45,581 nucleotides of DNA, taken from contig JAPOTE010000005.1 of NCBI GenBank assembly GCA_026709335.1, forward strand, positions 1 to 45,581, in the 5' to 3' direction. This DNA comes from Bacteroidota bacterium. Its GTDB lineage: Bacteria; Bacteroidota; Rhodothermia; Rhodothermales; Bin80. Below, piece after piece: positions 9,744-17,066 of this stretch (positions are counted from its first letter, which is position 1; each line of letters starts with the position of its first letter). The notes beneath the pieces were generated by a model, which was given only the letters and a program-made list of their open reading frames with translations, made no database searches and was not told where the DNA came from. The translations under genes and the position numbers were made by a program.

Positions 9744-11813
9744 TTGGCTGCATCTCAGGCTGTCCTTGCACATGAGAAGTATCTAAGTGATGATGATTTG
9801 GGGAGATCCGAATCCTGTGGGCAACAGGGATGTCATCCAGACATTGTTGCCCAGTGGGAGGCCTCCGCTCACCGCTTTTCCTCCTTCAATAACCCGTATT
9901 ATCGGAAGAGTATCGAGGCGTTGATTGAGCGAGGTGGTAATGAACCTGCCCGATGGTGTGCATCCTGCCATGATCCACTCGTACTATTTACGGGGCGTTT
10001 TACGGATGATCAACTACTGGATTTTGAACATCCAACGTCCACTGCAGGGATTACATGTTTGTCATGCCATGCAATTGAGGCTTTGAGGGACGTTAAGGGA
10101 AATGGCAGATATGTAATTTCTGTACCGGACGAATATCCGTTTGCCAGATCCAATGATGATACTCGCCAATGGGTTCACAATACACTTGTAAGGGCTAAGC
10201 CAGGTCCTCACAGAGAAGCTATGCTCAAATCTGTTCATCAGACAATGGAATTCTGTGGTAGCTGTCACAAGGTAGGATTACCAGTTGAGGTTAATAATTA
10301 TCGGTGGAAACGAGGTCAGAACGAATACGACGCATGGCACAATAGTGGAACAAGTGGAAATACTGTACGATCGTTTTATTTGCCAAAAGAGCCCCAAACC
10401 TGCATTGACTGTCATATGCCATATGTTGTGTCTGACGATCAGGGAGGTTCGGATGGATTCATTCGCAGTCATACGTTTGCAGCCGCAAACACTGCAATTC
10501 CAGAGCTAATGGACTATCCTGATCAGGTAGAGGAGGTACAAAAATCTCTTCAGTCTTCTGCTTCGGTGGATATCTTTGCAATCACTGTTGATGGTAGAAC
10601 TTACGGTCCAAATGATCAAATACCGTTACTCAAACCAGGCTCTGAGGTAATGGCCACCATAGTTGTTCGTAACCGTCGGGTGGGCCATTTACTTCCAGGA
10701 GGAACAAATGACTCCAACGAAATGTGGCTTGAATTTTCTGTAATGGATACATCGGGAATAAGTATTCTGATTTCAGGTGACTTGGATCCAGAAGGAAGAG
10801 TCGATTCAACTGCGCATTTCTGGGGAGCAGTACAGGTAGATCGAGCCAGCCAGGCAATTAACAGAAGAAATGCTCAGGACTGGGTTGCAACCGTCTATGC
10901 AAACATGATTGGACCAGGTACAGCACATACCGTGCATTATGCCTTTCGTGTTCCCCCGGGATCTCCTATTGGCATATTCTCTGCTCAGTTGTACCATCGT
11001 AAATTCAAGTGGTATTTCCATAACTGGACCTTCCGTGGTCGGATAGCACCTGAGCAGCCAGACTCATTGGCTCGAAAAGAAGTGGACTTGCGAAAATGGG
11101 AGCTGGGGCCTGGCGAGACACCGACCATTCCAGTAACACTTATGGCGTCAATTCAACGCTCCATTGACCGTCCACCAGACATCACGCATCCTTTATGGGA
11201 GCGCTGGAATGATTATGGAATAGGGCTCTTTATTGAAGGAGATACGCGTGGTGCGTTGCAGGCGTTCAGCCAAGTTTCACGCATAGCACCTGAAAGTCCA
11301 GAGGGGCCGATTAATTTGGCACGTGTATACCTTGACGAGGGCAACTTAGGAGAGGCTGAGTTACAGCTTGAGGAAGCAGAGAAGAGACGACCCGGATATC
11401 TCAAGACTGCCTATTTTCGCGCTGAAGTATTGAAAGGGAATGGCTATTATGAGGAGGCGCTTGCCGAGTGGATGACTGTCTACAAGGTGTATCCGAATGA
11501 TCGAGTACTTCTACTTTCAATTGCACGAATCCATTACTTGATGGAACGATATGAAAGCGCACTGCAGTGGATTGATCATGTTCTTGCAATAGATCCGGAA
11601 GATTTGGGAGGATTGTACAACCGGATGCTGACACTTGGCGCAATGGGAAAATCCGATGAACTTTCGGAAGCACAAAGAATTTATGAATTCTATAAGGAGG
11701 ATGAGACTGCACTTGCTGTCACGGGCCCTTATAAGCAGCGTCACCCATCAGATAACCTTGAAGCTCAGCCAATTCATCAGCATACTTTGAAACTGGTTAA
11801 ACGTCAGCCCTGA
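9744..11813 (+). CDS. multiheme cytochrome c with C-terminal TPR repeats
   Basis: A 689-residue protein with one CX4CH (CGQQGCH, residues 25-31) and four CXXCH haem sites (CASCH, CLSCH, CGSCH, CIDCH) in its first third, a beta-rich middle, and TPR-like helices from about residue 490 to 640 (GDTRGALQAFSQVSRIAPES, YYEEALAEWMTVYKVYP, YESALQWIDHVLAIDPED). Haem c is attached in the periplasm, yet the ORF has no signal peptide. The first usable start is a TTG at 9744. The frame is open back to the TAA ending the membrane protein, whose last helix would export this domain if the two were joined. Its end overlaps the convergent murA by 10 bases. Electron transfer partner is unknown. Confidence 0.85.
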   Translation: MAASQAVLAHEKYLSDDDLGRSESCGQQGCHPDIVAQWEASAHRFSSFNNPYYRKSIEALIERGGNEPARWCASCHDPLVLFTGRFTDDQLLDFEHPTSTAGITCLSCHAIEALRDVKGNGRYVISVPDEYPFARSNDDTRQWVHNTLVRAKPGPHREAMLKSVHQTMEFCGSCHKVGLPVEVNNYRWKRGQNEYDAWHNSGTSGNTVRSFYLPKEPQTCIDCHMPYVVSDDQGGSDGFIRSHTFAAANTAIPELMDYPDQVEEVQKSLQSSASVDIFAITVDGRTYGPNDQIPLLKPGSEVMATIVVRNRRVGHLLPGGTNDSNEMWLEFSVMDTSGISILISGDLDPEGRVDSTAHFWGAVQVDRASQAINRRNAQDWVATVYANMIGPGTAHTVHYAFRVPPGSPIGIFSAQLYHRKFKWYFHNWTFRGRIAPEQPDSLARKEVDLRKWELGPGETPTIPVTLMASIQRSIDRPPDITHPLWERWNDYGIGLFIEGDTRGALQAFSQVSRIAPESPEGPINLARVYLDEGNLGEAELQLEEAEKRRPGYLKTAYFRAEVLKGNGYYEEALAEWMTVYKVYPNDRVLLLSIARIHYLMERYESALQWIDHVLAIDPEDLGGLYNRMLTLGAMGKSDELSEAQRIYEFYKEDETALAVTGPYKQRHPSDNLEAQPIHQHTLKLVKRQP

Positions 11814-13102
11814 CTCGGAGCACCAAATTCGTCGTACTGTTCTCGTCGAATGTCAATCCCACATCTGTTGAGTTTGGATTCTAATCGCTCATAACCTCTA
11901 TCCAGATGATAGATGCGTCCAACATGCGTGGTGCCTTTTGCAATCATTCCGGCAAGTACCAGTGATACGCTAGCTCGTAGATCTGTGCTCATGACTCGTG
12001 TACCCGTGAGTTGCACTCCACCACGGACCAAGACTTGATTGCCAGAGACCCGTGCATCAAGCCCCATTCTGGCCAATTCTGGAATATGGTTGAAGCGATC
12101 CCCATATACCTGATCTGTAACGGTTGCCACCCCTTTTGCACAGGATAGAAGTACAGTCCATTGAGCCTGTAAATCGGTTGGGAATCCAGGATAAATTGCA
12201 GTTTTGATAGAAACGGGTTTGATGGTTTCGGGGGGCGTGATGATTACAGAATCATCATCTATGATACATCCCGATCCTGTATTCTGAAATGCTTCCAGGA
12301 ACTGCTCTCCAAGATGATCAGGGCGAGCATGTGTCAAGCGTATTGGTTTACCGGGCGTACCAGCAATTGCGGATGCAATCATAAATGTACCAAGTTCAAT
12401 ACGATCTGGGCAATTACTGAATTTGATTGGGTGCAATTCTGGAACTCCTTGAACCTCAATTGTGCGTGTTCCAACTCCATCCAATTTTGCTCCCATAGTC
12501 TTGAGCATTTCGCAGAACACGATGATATCAGGCTCGATGGCGGCATTTTCAATACGGCTACCTCCTCGACCTAAGCTGGCTGCAAGAAGCAGGTTAACTG
12601 TGGCACCAACACTTGAAGGTTCAAACCGATAGTTTCCCCCCGGTAATCCGCCTCTCGGTACCTTTGCTACAACATAACCCTCATCCAGATCAATTTCTGC
12701 TCCCAATGCTTTAAGGCCTTCAATATGAAGATCAACCGGTCGAGGCCCCCATGCGCACCCACCGGGTAACGACACCCTCGCTTGACCACATCGTCCAATC
12801 AATGCACCCAACATGTAGAAGGACGCACGCATTTTCTTCACAAGATCATAGGGAGATTCAGGGAATCCGACACGTGTTGCGTCAATTTGAAGTCTGTGAT
12901 TCTTGCGCTCTACAGAAGCACCAGTAATGCGAATCACGTGAGAGAATGTAGTGATGTCGCGCAACTCTGGGATATGATCCAGATATGTAATCCCGTGAGG
13001 AAGAATAGCAGCAGCCATGAGTGGCAGTGCAGCATTTTTGGATGCACTGACGGGGAGAGTGCCTTGTAGCTTTTGGCCTCCCTGAATCACAAGTTTTTCC
13101 AT
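11804..13102 (-). CDS. murA: UDP-N-acetylglucosamine 1-carboxyvinyltransferase
   Basis: MurA transfers enolpyruvate from PEP to UDP-GlcNAc, the first committed step of peptidoglycan synthesis in the cytosol. The 432-residue protein opens with MEKLVIQGG and SASKNAALPLMAA (K22, N23), and carries LPGGCAWGPRPVDLH with the active-site Cys116, the residue alkylated by fosfomycin. YPGFPTDLQAQW and RFNHIPELARMG are further family signatures. Length is standard. It lies alone on the minus strand and its 3' end overlaps the end of the cytochrome c gene. Confidence 0.97.
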   Translation of the reverse strand: MEKLVIQGGQKLQGTLPVSASKNAALPLMAAAILPHGITYLDHIPELRDITTFSHVIRITGASVERKNHRLQIDATRVGFPESPYDLVKKMRASFYMLGALIGRCGQARVSLPGGCAWGPRPVDLHIEGLKALGAEIDLDEGYVVAKVPRGGLPGGNYRFEPSSVGATVNLLLAASLGRGGSRIENAAIEPDIIVFCEMLKTMGAKLDGVGTRTIEVQGVPELHPIKFSNCPDRIELGTFMIASAIAGTPGKPIRLTHARPDHLGEQFLEAFQNTGSGCIIDDDSVIITPPETIKPVSIKTAIYPGFPTDLQAQWTVLLSCAKGVATVTDQVYGDRFNHIPELARMGLDARVSGNQVLVRGGVQLTGTRVMSTDLRASVSLVLAGMIAKGTTHVGRIYHLDRGYERLESKLNRCGIDIRREQYDEFGAPSQG

Positions 13103-13307
13103 AAAGAAATAGTATGATGAAAAAGAGTTATGAATATGGTTTTAGACAACAAAGAATAGAATCCAGCGGAAAATTTTCTGGCTGGAAAGTCACAAGATGT
13201 AAATACACTCAAAGGAGGCAATGTCAGGTTAGCACTGGAAATACATGATGTTCCACTTGAACTTAGTTGGCTTGATCGTTTGCATCAATTTATACATCGA
13301 CTATAAT

Positions 13308-15074
13308 TTACAGCGTCAGTGAAAGGTCAACCAGCGATTTATCCGTAATAATATGGGACAGACCTCTGGGCCCCGACCACTCTGGAATACGATGATCGCT
13401 GTGGAGTCGCATCCGTTGCATGTCTAAAGCGAAAAACACATCATCCAGCGAAGGGGTTGAATCCTTTAAGGCAGGCAACCTGGCCTTAGCTTCTGAAATA
13501 AATCTTTCACTCGTTGCCTCCTCGCCATAGTAGGCACTTTTCCACCAAGTTATGATGCGATCTTGCGACTCGTGAAGAGTAATATTATCTGGCAGGTAAT
13601 CTTTCTTACTGAGATTAGAACTCTTGTTTGCGGGCATAAGATTCCAGAGATCATCGCATGGCCATGCCGCCCATGGAAGGCAGTGGTCAATGTGCATATT
13701 ATTGGAACGCAATTTTTTGCCGGTCCATACGCAATAAATCGATTGAGAATTTAATAACCTTAGAGCACGATTGCGTACTTCCGCCTGATTGCGTTCAGGT
13801 TCATATGGAAGCATCAACTGTCTTAATTGAGATTCCTCTATCTGTCTATTTTGGTTTTTCGCATACTGAAGGATTAGTCGGGTCCATTCCTCTACTAATG
13901 CAGGCTCAATCCAAATGCTATAACGTAGAAGTGCCCGCCAGAGATGAGCAGGAACGATCATTTCCCCGAACTCTGAAAAATAATTTTCGTTCAGTGTAAT
14001 TGAGCTCCCGATTCGAAACTGCCACCTATTCACTCTAAAAATTGGGCTACCATCAGGATAATTAAGGTATCGCACTGGCATTTTTTCGATCGTAGCAGCG
14101 GCATCACGGAGTGCCTGTGTCAAATCTGTTGCGCGGTTCGAGTGTAATGATGCCCCCGGTCGGAGCGATCTGATTTCATATGGATTTGTGATGATTTTTT
14201 CAAGAGCAGCTTTGGCAAACCCGAGTCTATGGCCTCCAAAGTCATTAGTGCCACTTTGTGGCATATTTGCTTTCAGTAATGGCAGATAAAGCTGGAGCCA
14301 GGAAAGCGCCAGGGCCCCCATGGGAATTTTGACATGATCTGCTCCGTCTTCTCGTGCAAGGCCAGGAGAGATGCTGGCCACTCTGCTGAGAGAACGCAAT
14401 AGCGCGAGCTTATAAGTTGATGACTTGTTGTCGAGCAAGACAATACGGCGAATTAATGGTAATGCACCTGTGCCGTCGTCAGGCAAACGAACAATAATTT
14501 GATGCCACCTTACTTGAAGGCGTCCTAAATGGTCTTTGACATCTTCAAATGATTCTATATAAGCTCCATGCCTCTTCGCAAGATGTTCAATCTCAGATTT
14601 AGAAACAGTATGCATGCCCCGCTCTTTCTCACAGGGTATTCGAAGGGAGAATGCGATGACTCCCCGAGGCTTGAGAAGTGATATCAATTTCCGGAAACTC
14701 CGCCCCCGCTCTTTGCTGGGAACAAACATCCATACAGCATTGAGAAGAATCAAGTCAAATGACAAACCCGAACGACTGATCTTAAGATCGGGTAGCCGGT
14801 CGTCAACCAACTTGAAGGAAGATCCGGAATGGAATTGTTTTGCCTGCTTTCGCATGGAAGAAGATGGCTCCACGGCGATCACTTGATGTCCCTTTGACGC
14901 GAGCCAAGCTGCATCCCTACAACTGCCTGCGCCGATATCTAAAATACTGGCTGGTTCTTCGGGAAGGTATGATTCAAACCAGGCATTAAGCCGTTCAGGT
15001 GCAATGGACTCATACATTGTAGCCTGCTGTGAGATAGCAGGTTTTATAAGTGTTGAGTCCTCGCTATTGATCAT
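13308..15074 (-). CDS. class I methyltransferase fused to an HNH endonuclease
   Basis: A 588-residue two-part protein. Residues about 20-195 form a SAM methyltransferase (ILDIGAGSCRDAAWLASKGH, then VIAVEPS, DLILLNAVWMF, LLKPRGVIAFS). There is no DPPY/NPPY or PCQ motif, so it is not a standard DNA adenine or cytosine methylase. Residues about 210-588 begin with DNKSSTYKLALLRSL, the opening of a group of HNH proteins, and end in a zinc-less HNH site: YCVWTGKK, MHIDHCLPW (about 460-468), LWNLMPANKSSN. The nuclease is probably active on DNA. The target of the methyltransferase is unknown. Position beside a broken AAA ATPase gene hints at a defence role (inference). No damage is seen in the ORF. 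Confidence 0.8.
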   Translation of the reverse strand: MINSEDSTLIKPAISQQATMYESIAPERLNAWFESYLPEEPASILDIGAGSCRDAAWLASKGHQVIAVEPSSSMRKQAKQFHSGSSFKLVDDRLPDLKISRSGLSFDLILLNAVWMFVPSKERGRSFRKLISLLKPRGVIAFSLRIPCEKERGMHTVSKSEIEHLAKRHGAYIESFEDVKDHLGRLQVRWHQIIVRLPDDGTGALPLIRRIVLLDNKSSTYKLALLRSLSRVASISPGLAREDGADHVKIPMGALALSWLQLYLPLLKANMPQSGTNDFGGHRLGFAKAALEKIITNPYEIRSLRPGASLHSNRATDLTQALRDAAATIEKMPVRYLNYPDGSPIFRVNRWQFRIGSSITLNENYFSEFGEMIVPAHLWRALLRYSIWIEPALVEEWTRLILQYAKNQNRQIEESQLRQLMLPYEPERNQAEVRNRALRLLNSQSIYCVWTGKKLRSNNMHIDHCLPWAAWPCDDLWNLMPANKSSNLSKKDYLPDNITLHESQDRIITWWKSAYYGEEATSERFISEAKARLPALKDSTPSLDDVFFALDMQRMRLHSDHRIPEWSGPRGLSHIITDKSLVDLSLTL

Positions 15075-15269
15075 ATATATTTCTGAGATAGTGTCAAGAT
15101 CTGAGAGGTTTTCCCATTTTCTCTCTATGTTCTTTCAAGATCTAGACAGCTCTAAAAGATCATTAAACATCTAGCTCTGTACATGGTACCACAATGCGTT
15201 ATTCTTGTTGATATTTCACAGAGCTCGCCAGGTCGATAACAGATTTGTCTGGAAGCAGAAACAAACATT

Positions 15270-15639
15270 ATGAAAATAATCATAAATGATTTGGGCGTAC
15301 TAAAAAGGGCAGCCTTTGAATTGGGTGACCTGACCTTAATTTATGGACATAATAACACTGAAAAAACTTATGCGACTTATGCTCTTTTCGGTTTTTTCAC
15401 AAAACTGGCAGAGATTCATAAGATCCAAAATTTCTGATCAGCAAATAAGAGAACTCGTTGATGATGGCACAACGCAGATTGATATTACAAAACACGCCCA
15501 AAAGGCAAAGAATATTCTTGCGCAGGATTGTCATAGATACACGCAAGAACTGCCTAAGATTTTCGCATCCAATTCAAAATATTTCAAAGAAATCCAATTT
15601 CAAATAGAATTGGAGACAGATTTGAAATCAACCCCTTGA
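15270..15639 (+). pseudogene. AAA-family ATPase (AAA_15/OLD-like) N-terminal remnant
   Basis: An ATG at 15270 starts MKIIINDLGVLKRAAFELGD followed by LTLIYGHNNTEKTYATYALF. This is the N-terminus of an AAA_15-like ATPase in which the Walker A lysine is kept but the preceding glycine reads glutamate (NNTGKT becomes NNTEKT). The frame stops at 15435-15437. The continuation lies in the other frame (SDQQIRELVDDGTTQIDI, then YTQELPKIFASN), and ends at 15639 after only the N-terminal quarter of such a protein. Frameshift plus truncation make it a relic. Members of this family often serve in phage defence. It is divergent from the methyltransferase-HNH gene, 195 bases away. Confidence 0.6.
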
Positions 15640-15884
15640 AGTGTCAATACGAATCTAATGTCCAAACAAAAAGCATACTCAACACAGCATGTAGTGGATG
15701 CCTACGTTCCGAAGCATCGATCAACGGTTTTTGGCCTTGTGTTGGCCCCCAAATATCACTAAATCTATTTTCTCCATTCCGAGTGTACAGGTGTTTTATT
15801 GAGAACATGAAGCTCGGTTATCATGATTTGCAGGTTACTTCATGAGAGAGCAAGCTTTTCAGTAGCTAAACGCCTAGGTTAACA
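15640..15884. other. gene-free stretch before the cysteine desulfurase
   Basis: A 69-codon frame (15636-15845) has a composition that does not look like a conserved protein, and no family was recognised. It may be further decayed sequence from the ATPase locus. Promoter elements for the following housekeeping run are not obvious. Confidence 0.25.
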
Positions 15885-17066
15885 ATGGGGATAACAGAAT
15901 CAAGTATAAAGCCAATCTATATGGATCATGCGGCGACTACGCCGCTGGATCCAGCGGTATTTGAGGCAATGTTGCCGTATCTCACGGAATGCTATGGAAA
16001 TCCATCCTCAGTTCACTGCCTAGGCCGACAGGCACGAGGTGCGATTGAAGAAAGCCGGGGGCGAATTGCACAACATCTCAATACAAAACCTGAGCATATT
16101 ATTTTTACAAGTGGGGCTACGGAGGCCAATAATCTTGCACTTAACATCTTAGGTGCAGAAGAACATCTGATTACGTCAAATATTGAACATAAAGCAATAT
16201 TAGAACCAGCTAAAGGTCTGGAAGCTTCGGGGATTGGAGTTACCTTGCTGACGCCGGATTCAATACTTGGCACTTTGAATGGCACCCAGATTGCAGGGGC
16301 AATCAAGCCGGATACACGCCTTGTTTCAGTGATGTATGTGAATAATGAAACTGGTGCGAGTACACCTCTGAAAGAAATTTCCAGAACCTGCGATGAACAT
16401 AATGTTCTTCTTCATACGGATGCAGCACAGGCAGCAGCGTGGGTTCCTCTGGACACGGAAAGCCTTGATGTAGATATGATGTCCCTCTCAGCTCATAAGT
16501 TCTATGGACCAAGGGGAATTGGTATTCTTTATGTAAGGGATACTGTGGTGCTGAGTCCTCAGATCCTTGGAGGTGCCCAGGAACGGGGACGTCGAGGGGG
16601 GACAGAGAATGTTGCAGCAGCAGTTGGGATGGCAACTGCAATGGATCTGATTGTGGAAGATCAAGATACACATGCGTGTCGCATATATTTGCTTCGACAG
16701 GAATTGCAGGAGCAACTTCTTGTTGAGCTTGGGGATCAACTAATCGTAAATACTCCGCCCAGTTCAGCTCCGCATGTCCTTAATGTAGCATTCAAGCCTA
16801 TGGATGATATTCCCCTAGATGGAGAAATGCTGCTTCTGAACCTAGACCTGGAAGGAATCTATACATCTGCCGGTTCAGCGTGTACCAGTGGAGCCATCTC
16901 TCCAAGTCATGTACTACTAGGACTGGGGGTTCCGGAACATACCGCTCGCGCATCGCTTAGGCTGTCTCTCGGTCGTTCTACTACAAGGGAAGATATTGCC
17001 AGAACCGTGGAATGTATCTGCAACGTTGTAAAAAGAATGCGCGGACAAAGGAGGAATGGAGAATAA
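15885..17066 (+). CDS. cysteine desulfurase (class V aminotransferase, NifS/IscS type)
   Basis: A 393-residue PLP enzyme that would take sulfur from cysteine as a persulfide for Fe-S cluster, thiouridine or other sulfur pathways. YMDHAATTPLDPAV and GNPSSVHCLGR at the N-terminus, TSGATEANNLAL, and SAHKFYGPRGIGILYVR with the PLP lysine at residue 205 are family marks. The persulfide cysteine is in SAGSACTSG (Cys333). The short loop there fits the NifS/IscS class rather than SufS. Which pathway it serves cannot be told from the sequence. The next gene starts 11 bases before its end. Confidence 0.92.
   Translation: MGITESSIKPIYMDHAATTPLDPAVFEAMLPYLTECYGNPSSVHCLGRQARGAIEESRGRIAQHLNTKPEHIIFTSGATEANNLALNILGAEEHLITSNIEHKAILEPAKGLEASGIGVTLLTPDSILGTLNGTQIAGAIKPDTRLVSVMYVNNETGASTPLKEISRTCDEHNVLLHTDAAQAAAWVPLDTESLDVDMMSLSAHKFYGPRGIGILYVRDTVVLSPQILGGAQERGRRGGTENVAAAVGMATAMDLIVEDQDTHACRIYLLRQELQEQLLVELGDQLIVNTPPSSAPHVLNVAFKPMDDIPLDGEMLLLNLDLEGIYTSAGSACTSGAISPSHVLLGLGVPEHTARASLRLSLGRSTTREDIARTVECICNVVKRMRGQRRNGE

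Follow-up and report, generated by a model that had tools for sequence, protein, structure and literature searches.

A methyltransferase-HNH nuclease fusion as a candidate single-gene defence protein in Rhodothermales

It is proposed that the gene at 13308..15074 (-) of the 45,581-nucleotide stretch analysed here (the window, which is the whole of contig C49 of its genome; JAPOTE010000005.1 of GCA_026709335.1, Bacteroidota; Rhodothermia; Rhodothermales; Bin80) encodes a single-gene, horizontally spread defence (conflict) nuclease, in which an HNH domain would cut DNA and a methyltransferase would not methylate DNA bases in the usual manner; we give this reading a probability of about one half. 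Nuclease-methyltransferase defence proteins exist. The present fusion is probably an undescribed one. PADLOC-DB 2.0.0 contains no specific model for it and yields partial matches only, to mad2 for the methyltransferase half and to PtuB, Cas9 and PDC-M01B for the HNH half, and the RefSeq annotation of plasmid copies is class I SAM-dependent methyltransferase. We found no description of a methyltransferase-HNH protein, or of an HNH protein paired with a methyltransferase-HIT (MTase-HIT) protein, in the open-access literature, and the combination together with its HIT relatives appears to be undescribed. Genomes and loci are denoted below by our own G and L numbers.

Domain organization of the fusion protein

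The gene has an ATG start and 588 codons with no internal stop, and the AF2 model of its 588-aa product has a pLDDT of 88.9 and a pTM of 0.84. The initial annotation had described a Methyltransf_11-like half and an HNH half in one intact ORF, recognized by the motifs ILDIGAGSCRD, MHIDHCLPW and LWNLMPANK; all three are found in the product, and both domains score above their Pfam cut-offs, Methyltransf_11 (PF08241) at residues 45-142 (E 6.3e-12, 46.4 bits against 21.2) and HNH_4 (PF13395) at residues 448-495 (E 7.5e-6, 26.3 bits against 22).

Residues 1-189 (14508..15074, -) are a class I SAM methyltransferase of the small-molecule/tRNA type, as indicated by Methyltransf_11 and VIA-align. The SAM-binding motif I (ILDIGAGSCRD with its flank) lies at residues 43-54 (14913..14948, -), and D46, G48, G50, R53, D54 and E69 are identical in all 66 aligned members. 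VIA-align of the AF2 model matches this half to solved class I methyltransferases including CypM, UbiG and TehB, at Z about 20, and by both fold and sequence it matches methyltransferases of small molecules, tRNA or peptides, with no DNA methylases among them. Scanning of the methyltransferase half found the DNA-methylase motif IV ([DNS]PP[YFW] or PC) in none of the 66 members, as had been claimed from the single sequence, and the protein is thus not an ordinary type II restriction-modification (R-M) fusion. It resembles type II R-M fusions in having a methyltransferase and a nuclease in one protein and differs from them in the missing motif IV; the fusion is, moreover, old and conserved, with invariant active sites.

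The HNH nuclease domain with its helical tail occupies residues 431-571 (13362..13784, -). Its catalytic pair D463-H464 (13683..13688, -) aligns with the IDH motif of Cas9; D463, H464, N478, N487 and K490 are identical in the 66 fused members, and D463-H464 is also invariant across all 58 rows of an alignment that includes unfused relatives. Modelled alone, this half has a pLDDT of 92.1 and a pTM of 0.90, and its best solved matches are Cas9 HNH domains (Z 7.4, 107 residues, 3.5 A); its sequence profile reaches a Cas9 chain at E 7.9e-7, with the D-H and N-x-x-K residues aligned. Sequence, fold and the D-H...N...N-x-x-K pattern are therefore common to both, but the fusion differs from Cas9 in having no recognized RuvC, guide-RNA or PAM domain, and it scores 23 bits with the Cas9 equivalog TIGR01865 against a cut-off of 100. 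No RuvC domain is present among the Pfam matches of the protein. A RuvC ahead of the HNH core was considered, as the Cas9 alignment begins before the core, and is not claimed, the model being helical there.

Between the two halves lies a middle domain (residues 190-430, 13785..14507, -) with a 'KSSTYKxALLR' segment, which is common to the unfused HNH relatives and has no secure match by which to assign its fold. The reading as a sulfur-binding domain (SBD) was not adopted: the fold match, to the SBD of SprMcrA (7cc9; Z 5.9, 133 residues, 4.4 A, 8% identity), is weak, and the profile comparison with SBD-HNH proteins is negative (hhalign probability 7% or less). The NF045808 model for phosphorothioate (PT)-DNA-binding HNH nucleases finds no match in the fusion up to E 1. 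The type IV modification-dependent HNH nucleases (SBD, SRA, EVE or wHTH with HNH; NF045808) share the order of an N-terminal domain followed by HNH, but there is no middle-domain profile similarity, and the fusion carries a methyltransferase.

Descent, spread and genomic location

Our scan of genome_contigs for relatives returned 433 loci, the best 80 of which were inspected for coverage. Nearly all of these 80 match the query at full length, from about residue 20 to 570, and two shorter ones (L059, L065) run into a contig end. Sixty-six members align end to end, and nine plasmid records carry the fusion over at least 80% of its length. Such full-length copies in many independent genomes and on plasmids exclude an assembly join of two genes, and they likewise dispose of the notion that the two halves are always separate in homologs. 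Four congeners have full-length copies of 68-72% identity, and other members of the order copies of 39-49%; of the ten genomes in the genus, five carry a complete copy and one more, G003, only the methyltransferase part, which breaks off at a contig end. The fusion was not found in IMG/VR viral contigs or in phage records, the sole match in the latter being a methyltransferase-only relative in Escherichia coli phage phi458. This relative (35.8% identity) and a partner ORF form Orf2-Orf3 near the phi458 integrase (L101:2336-3519), and of 5426 complete E. coli genomes 29 have it at no less than 99% identity. A decayed fusion is seen in G164 (L114:1501-2249), where the middle domain is gone and the methyltransferase and HNH parts are in different frames.

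A single branch of the HNH-half tree (SH-aLRT 99) separates all 48 fused rows from the 10 unfused relatives, which fits the descent of all fused proteins from a single fusion event. The whole-protein tree includes seven phylum labels, an approximate number of phyla because some labels come from MAG titles that are unreliable (e.g. 'Bordetella parapertussis' bins). In this tree the genus of the window groups with gammaproteobacterial MAGs and away from other Rhodothermales copies; the nearest relatives outside the genus being gammaproteobacterial, the tree points to transfer of the fusion between phyla. Across the gene as a whole, pN/pS between pairs of congeners is 0.19-0.30, synonymous sites being near saturation in most pairs, and both halves are constrained. 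Together with the catalytic sets invariant in 66 members, this indicates that both halves are under purifying selection.

The gene is located in a variable accessory site (13103..15884) between murA (11804-13102, -) and a cysteine desulfurase gene (15885-17066, +). The occupants of this site differ among congeners: in G002, G004 and G006 it is empty, with murA and the cysteine desulfurase gene about 480 bp apart; in G008 it is occupied by AbiEi and AbiEii; in G003 there is an AbiEi whose DNA is 95-97% identical to that of G008; and in G009, where the site is seen from the murA side only since the cysteine desulfurase gene is on another contig, murA has a split N6/N4 methylase and a BglII-type endonuclease after it. 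The gap is thus an accessory hotspot in the genus (window 13103-15884; L212, L213, L221). G001 has beside murA a 266-aa ORF (L220:4702-5499, -), cut at the stretch end and without Pfam or PADLOC match, which its position marks as a candidate unknown defence gene. In G002, G004 and G007 the MTase-HNH gene is elsewhere, adjoining carbohydrate genes, so that at least two places are occupied by it within the genus. The broken AAA ATPase that had been noted beside the gene in the window is confirmed as a frameshifted N-terminal remnant (15270..15639, +), the pieces of which, in two frames, match PDC-M47A (E 8e-20 and 3e-19) and PD-T4-4_A (2e-15 and 6e-11). PD-T4-4 is an anti-phage system that was discovered by experiment (PMC9519451).

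Elsewhere the fusion is mostly solitary. Sixty-four of 82 fused genes have no same-strand ORF within 150 bp downstream, no constant operon partner was found among the loci compared, and in many genomes the surrounding genes are ordinary; among special neighbours, an HNH_2-type nuclease cluster recurs most often (7 loci), and a plasmid copy is near mcrC and a DUF3578 (McrB-like) gene. Large proteins are encoded directly downstream of the fusion in Azospirillum (L078:9968-12418, L091:9962-12412) and are called 'hypothetical' in A. oryzae. The nearest ORFs matched 131 PADLOC models and ORFs at least 4.5 kb away (94 in each set) matched 10, the models being redundant and hence not counts of proteins; the comparison is only suggestive of defence enrichment. 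The 94 nearest neighbours include at least two with a match to the PADLOC model SspD. The selection and the defence role suggested in the initial annotation fare differently: purifying selection stands, and the defence role, favoured by the hotspot and the PD-T4-4-like remnant, is one that we infer, given a neighbour comparison that is suggestive only and a mostly inconstant partner.

Split relatives paired with a methyltransferase-HIT protein

Other Rhodothermia encode unfused HNH proteins, about 390 aa long, in which the middle domain and the HNH domain of the fusion recur, and in G079, G083, G090, G101, G118, G157 and G216 their gene is overlapped or directly adjoined by an MTase-HIT gene. 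The methyltransferase part of the latter resembles TIGR04096 (dnd-related methyltransferase) without reaching the cut-off of that model (E about 1e-13 to 1e-16); the HIT part scores above its Pfam cut-off. The class and phylum samples contain 19 full-length MTase-HIT genes, one of which (G086) is cut by a contig end, and an HNH gene adjoins all 18 that have a readable neighbour. Fifteen of these HNH neighbours are of the TYK kind, two of them being the fusion itself (G038 and G214, the only genomes in which the fusion is followed by an MTase-HIT gene), and three are of an unrelated KPLLL kind. A HIT gene alone, a Nudix gene or a MazG-like gene is also seen beside such HNH genes.

A profile built from fused members only matches the closer HNH genes at 9e-55 to 1e-28 (L124 at 9e-55, L131 at 6e-37, L223 at 4e-42) and the farther TYK genes at 1e-6 to 1e-16; KPLLL-kind HNH proteins and HNH-HIT fusions gave no score with it. 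The HNH + MTase-HIT loci of Rhodothermia and other Bacteroidota are therefore like the window's gene in an HNH half that is homologous over its full length in the closer ones and in the pairing with a methyltransferase, but unlike it in that they encode the methyltransferase separately, as a member of a different, TIGR04096-like subfamily with a C-terminal HIT, which the window lacks. Since relatives of the HNH half are recurrently paired with MTase-HIT, the fusion looks like a wider HNH + methyltransferase (+HIT) module condensed into one gene. The window has no MTase-HIT gene at the locus, and its genome has no match at E 1e-15, so that what is concluded from the split relatives may not carry over to it; a TIGR04096 search was silent in this genome and in the controls alike.

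The two-gene arrangement (L124, L131, L137, L223 and others) looks like a further candidate for a defence module, itself undescribed, and includes an unrelated SBD-like HNH kind, genes of which take the same position next to MTase-HIT in G080, G113 and G217. Direct HNH-HIT fusions with another HNH domain were also observed (L190:785-1765, -; L191:1501-2472, -; L228:1-967, -; L229:877-1872, +).

Proposed function and alternative explanations

A role in defence is suggested by the location, spread and architecture of the fusion. Cas9 HNH cuts DNA, and the HNH domain of the fusion, with its Cas9-type fold and catalytic residues, would do the same; the middle domain probably aids DNA recognition or binding. 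The likelier substrate of the N-terminal methyltransferase is a small molecule, a nucleotide or the end of a nucleic acid; alternatively, this domain may be a SAM-dependent switch that restrains or arms the nuclease. In the wider module, an HNH nuclease would be paired with MTase-HIT or with nucleotide hydrolases of the HIT, Nudix or MazG-like kind, and this recurrent pairing with methyltransferase and nucleotide-hydrolase partners suggests that a small molecule, nucleotide or nucleic-acid end exerts control. HIT proteins handle adenylylated substrates. It is tempting, and for now rather doubtful, to group the fusion with its split relatives as a defence superfamily that has so far gone undescribed, where a non-DNA methyltransferase controls the HNH nuclease, often with a HIT partner that hydrolyses nucleotides, and where DNA cleavage is gated by a small molecule or nucleic-acid end that has been methylated or adenylylated.

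Two described systems offer partial parallels. PD-lambda-5, a defence protein, bears the label 'methyltransferase' and has been interpreted as a compact RM+Abi system (PMC9519451), but the paper makes no mention of an HNH, which sets it apart by description. Thoeris type II uses ThsC, a HIT protein, as a defence accessory (PMC8565338), but the fusion has no TIR or NADase parts, and only its split relatives have the HIT.

A self-contained abortive-infection or toxin-antitoxin protein, whose methyltransferase would silence a host-killing HNH domain until infection, would agree with a single, patchy and mobile gene and with the use of the same site by AbiE toxin-antitoxin genes in congeners; a purely structural antitoxin would, however, have no need of the intact SAM site, and we regard this explanation as unlikely. 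An RNA-acting enzyme, in which a tRNA-type methyltransferase is coupled to an RNA-cutting HNH, would account for the top PHROG match, a tRNA methyltransferase family (E 3.9e-11), and for CmoM among the fold matches, and the handling of adenylylated substrates by HIT proteins would suit it as well. The HNH half is, however, nearest to the HNH of Cas9, a DNA cutter, and kinship of class I methyltransferases at such depth says little on the substrate, which makes this possibility quite improbable. The mostly solitary gene with ordinary surroundings in many genomes could also be one for DNA repair, stress response or metabolism, a non-defence role that we consider very unlikely in view of its patchiness within the genus, its different chromosomal sites, its spread across phyla and the site shared with defence genes. 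Least credible is a compact type IIG-like R-M enzyme that marks host DNA by its methyltransferase and cuts unmethylated DNA by its HNH, for which a methyltransferase and a nuclease in one protein with both active sites conserved would speak, but which is opposed by the lack of motif IV in every member, by fold and sequence matches that are not DNA methylases and by a target-recognition domain that is nowhere recognized in the protein.

The defence nuclease proposed here appears to be new in the combination of its parts, a methyltransferase without DNA-methylase motifs being joined to a Cas9-like HNH. In the known methyltransferase-nuclease defence pairs, a methyl mark on DNA separates self from non-self; if the fusion is a defence system, its methyl group or nucleotide signal must serve otherwise, for example in gating or protecting the nuclease.
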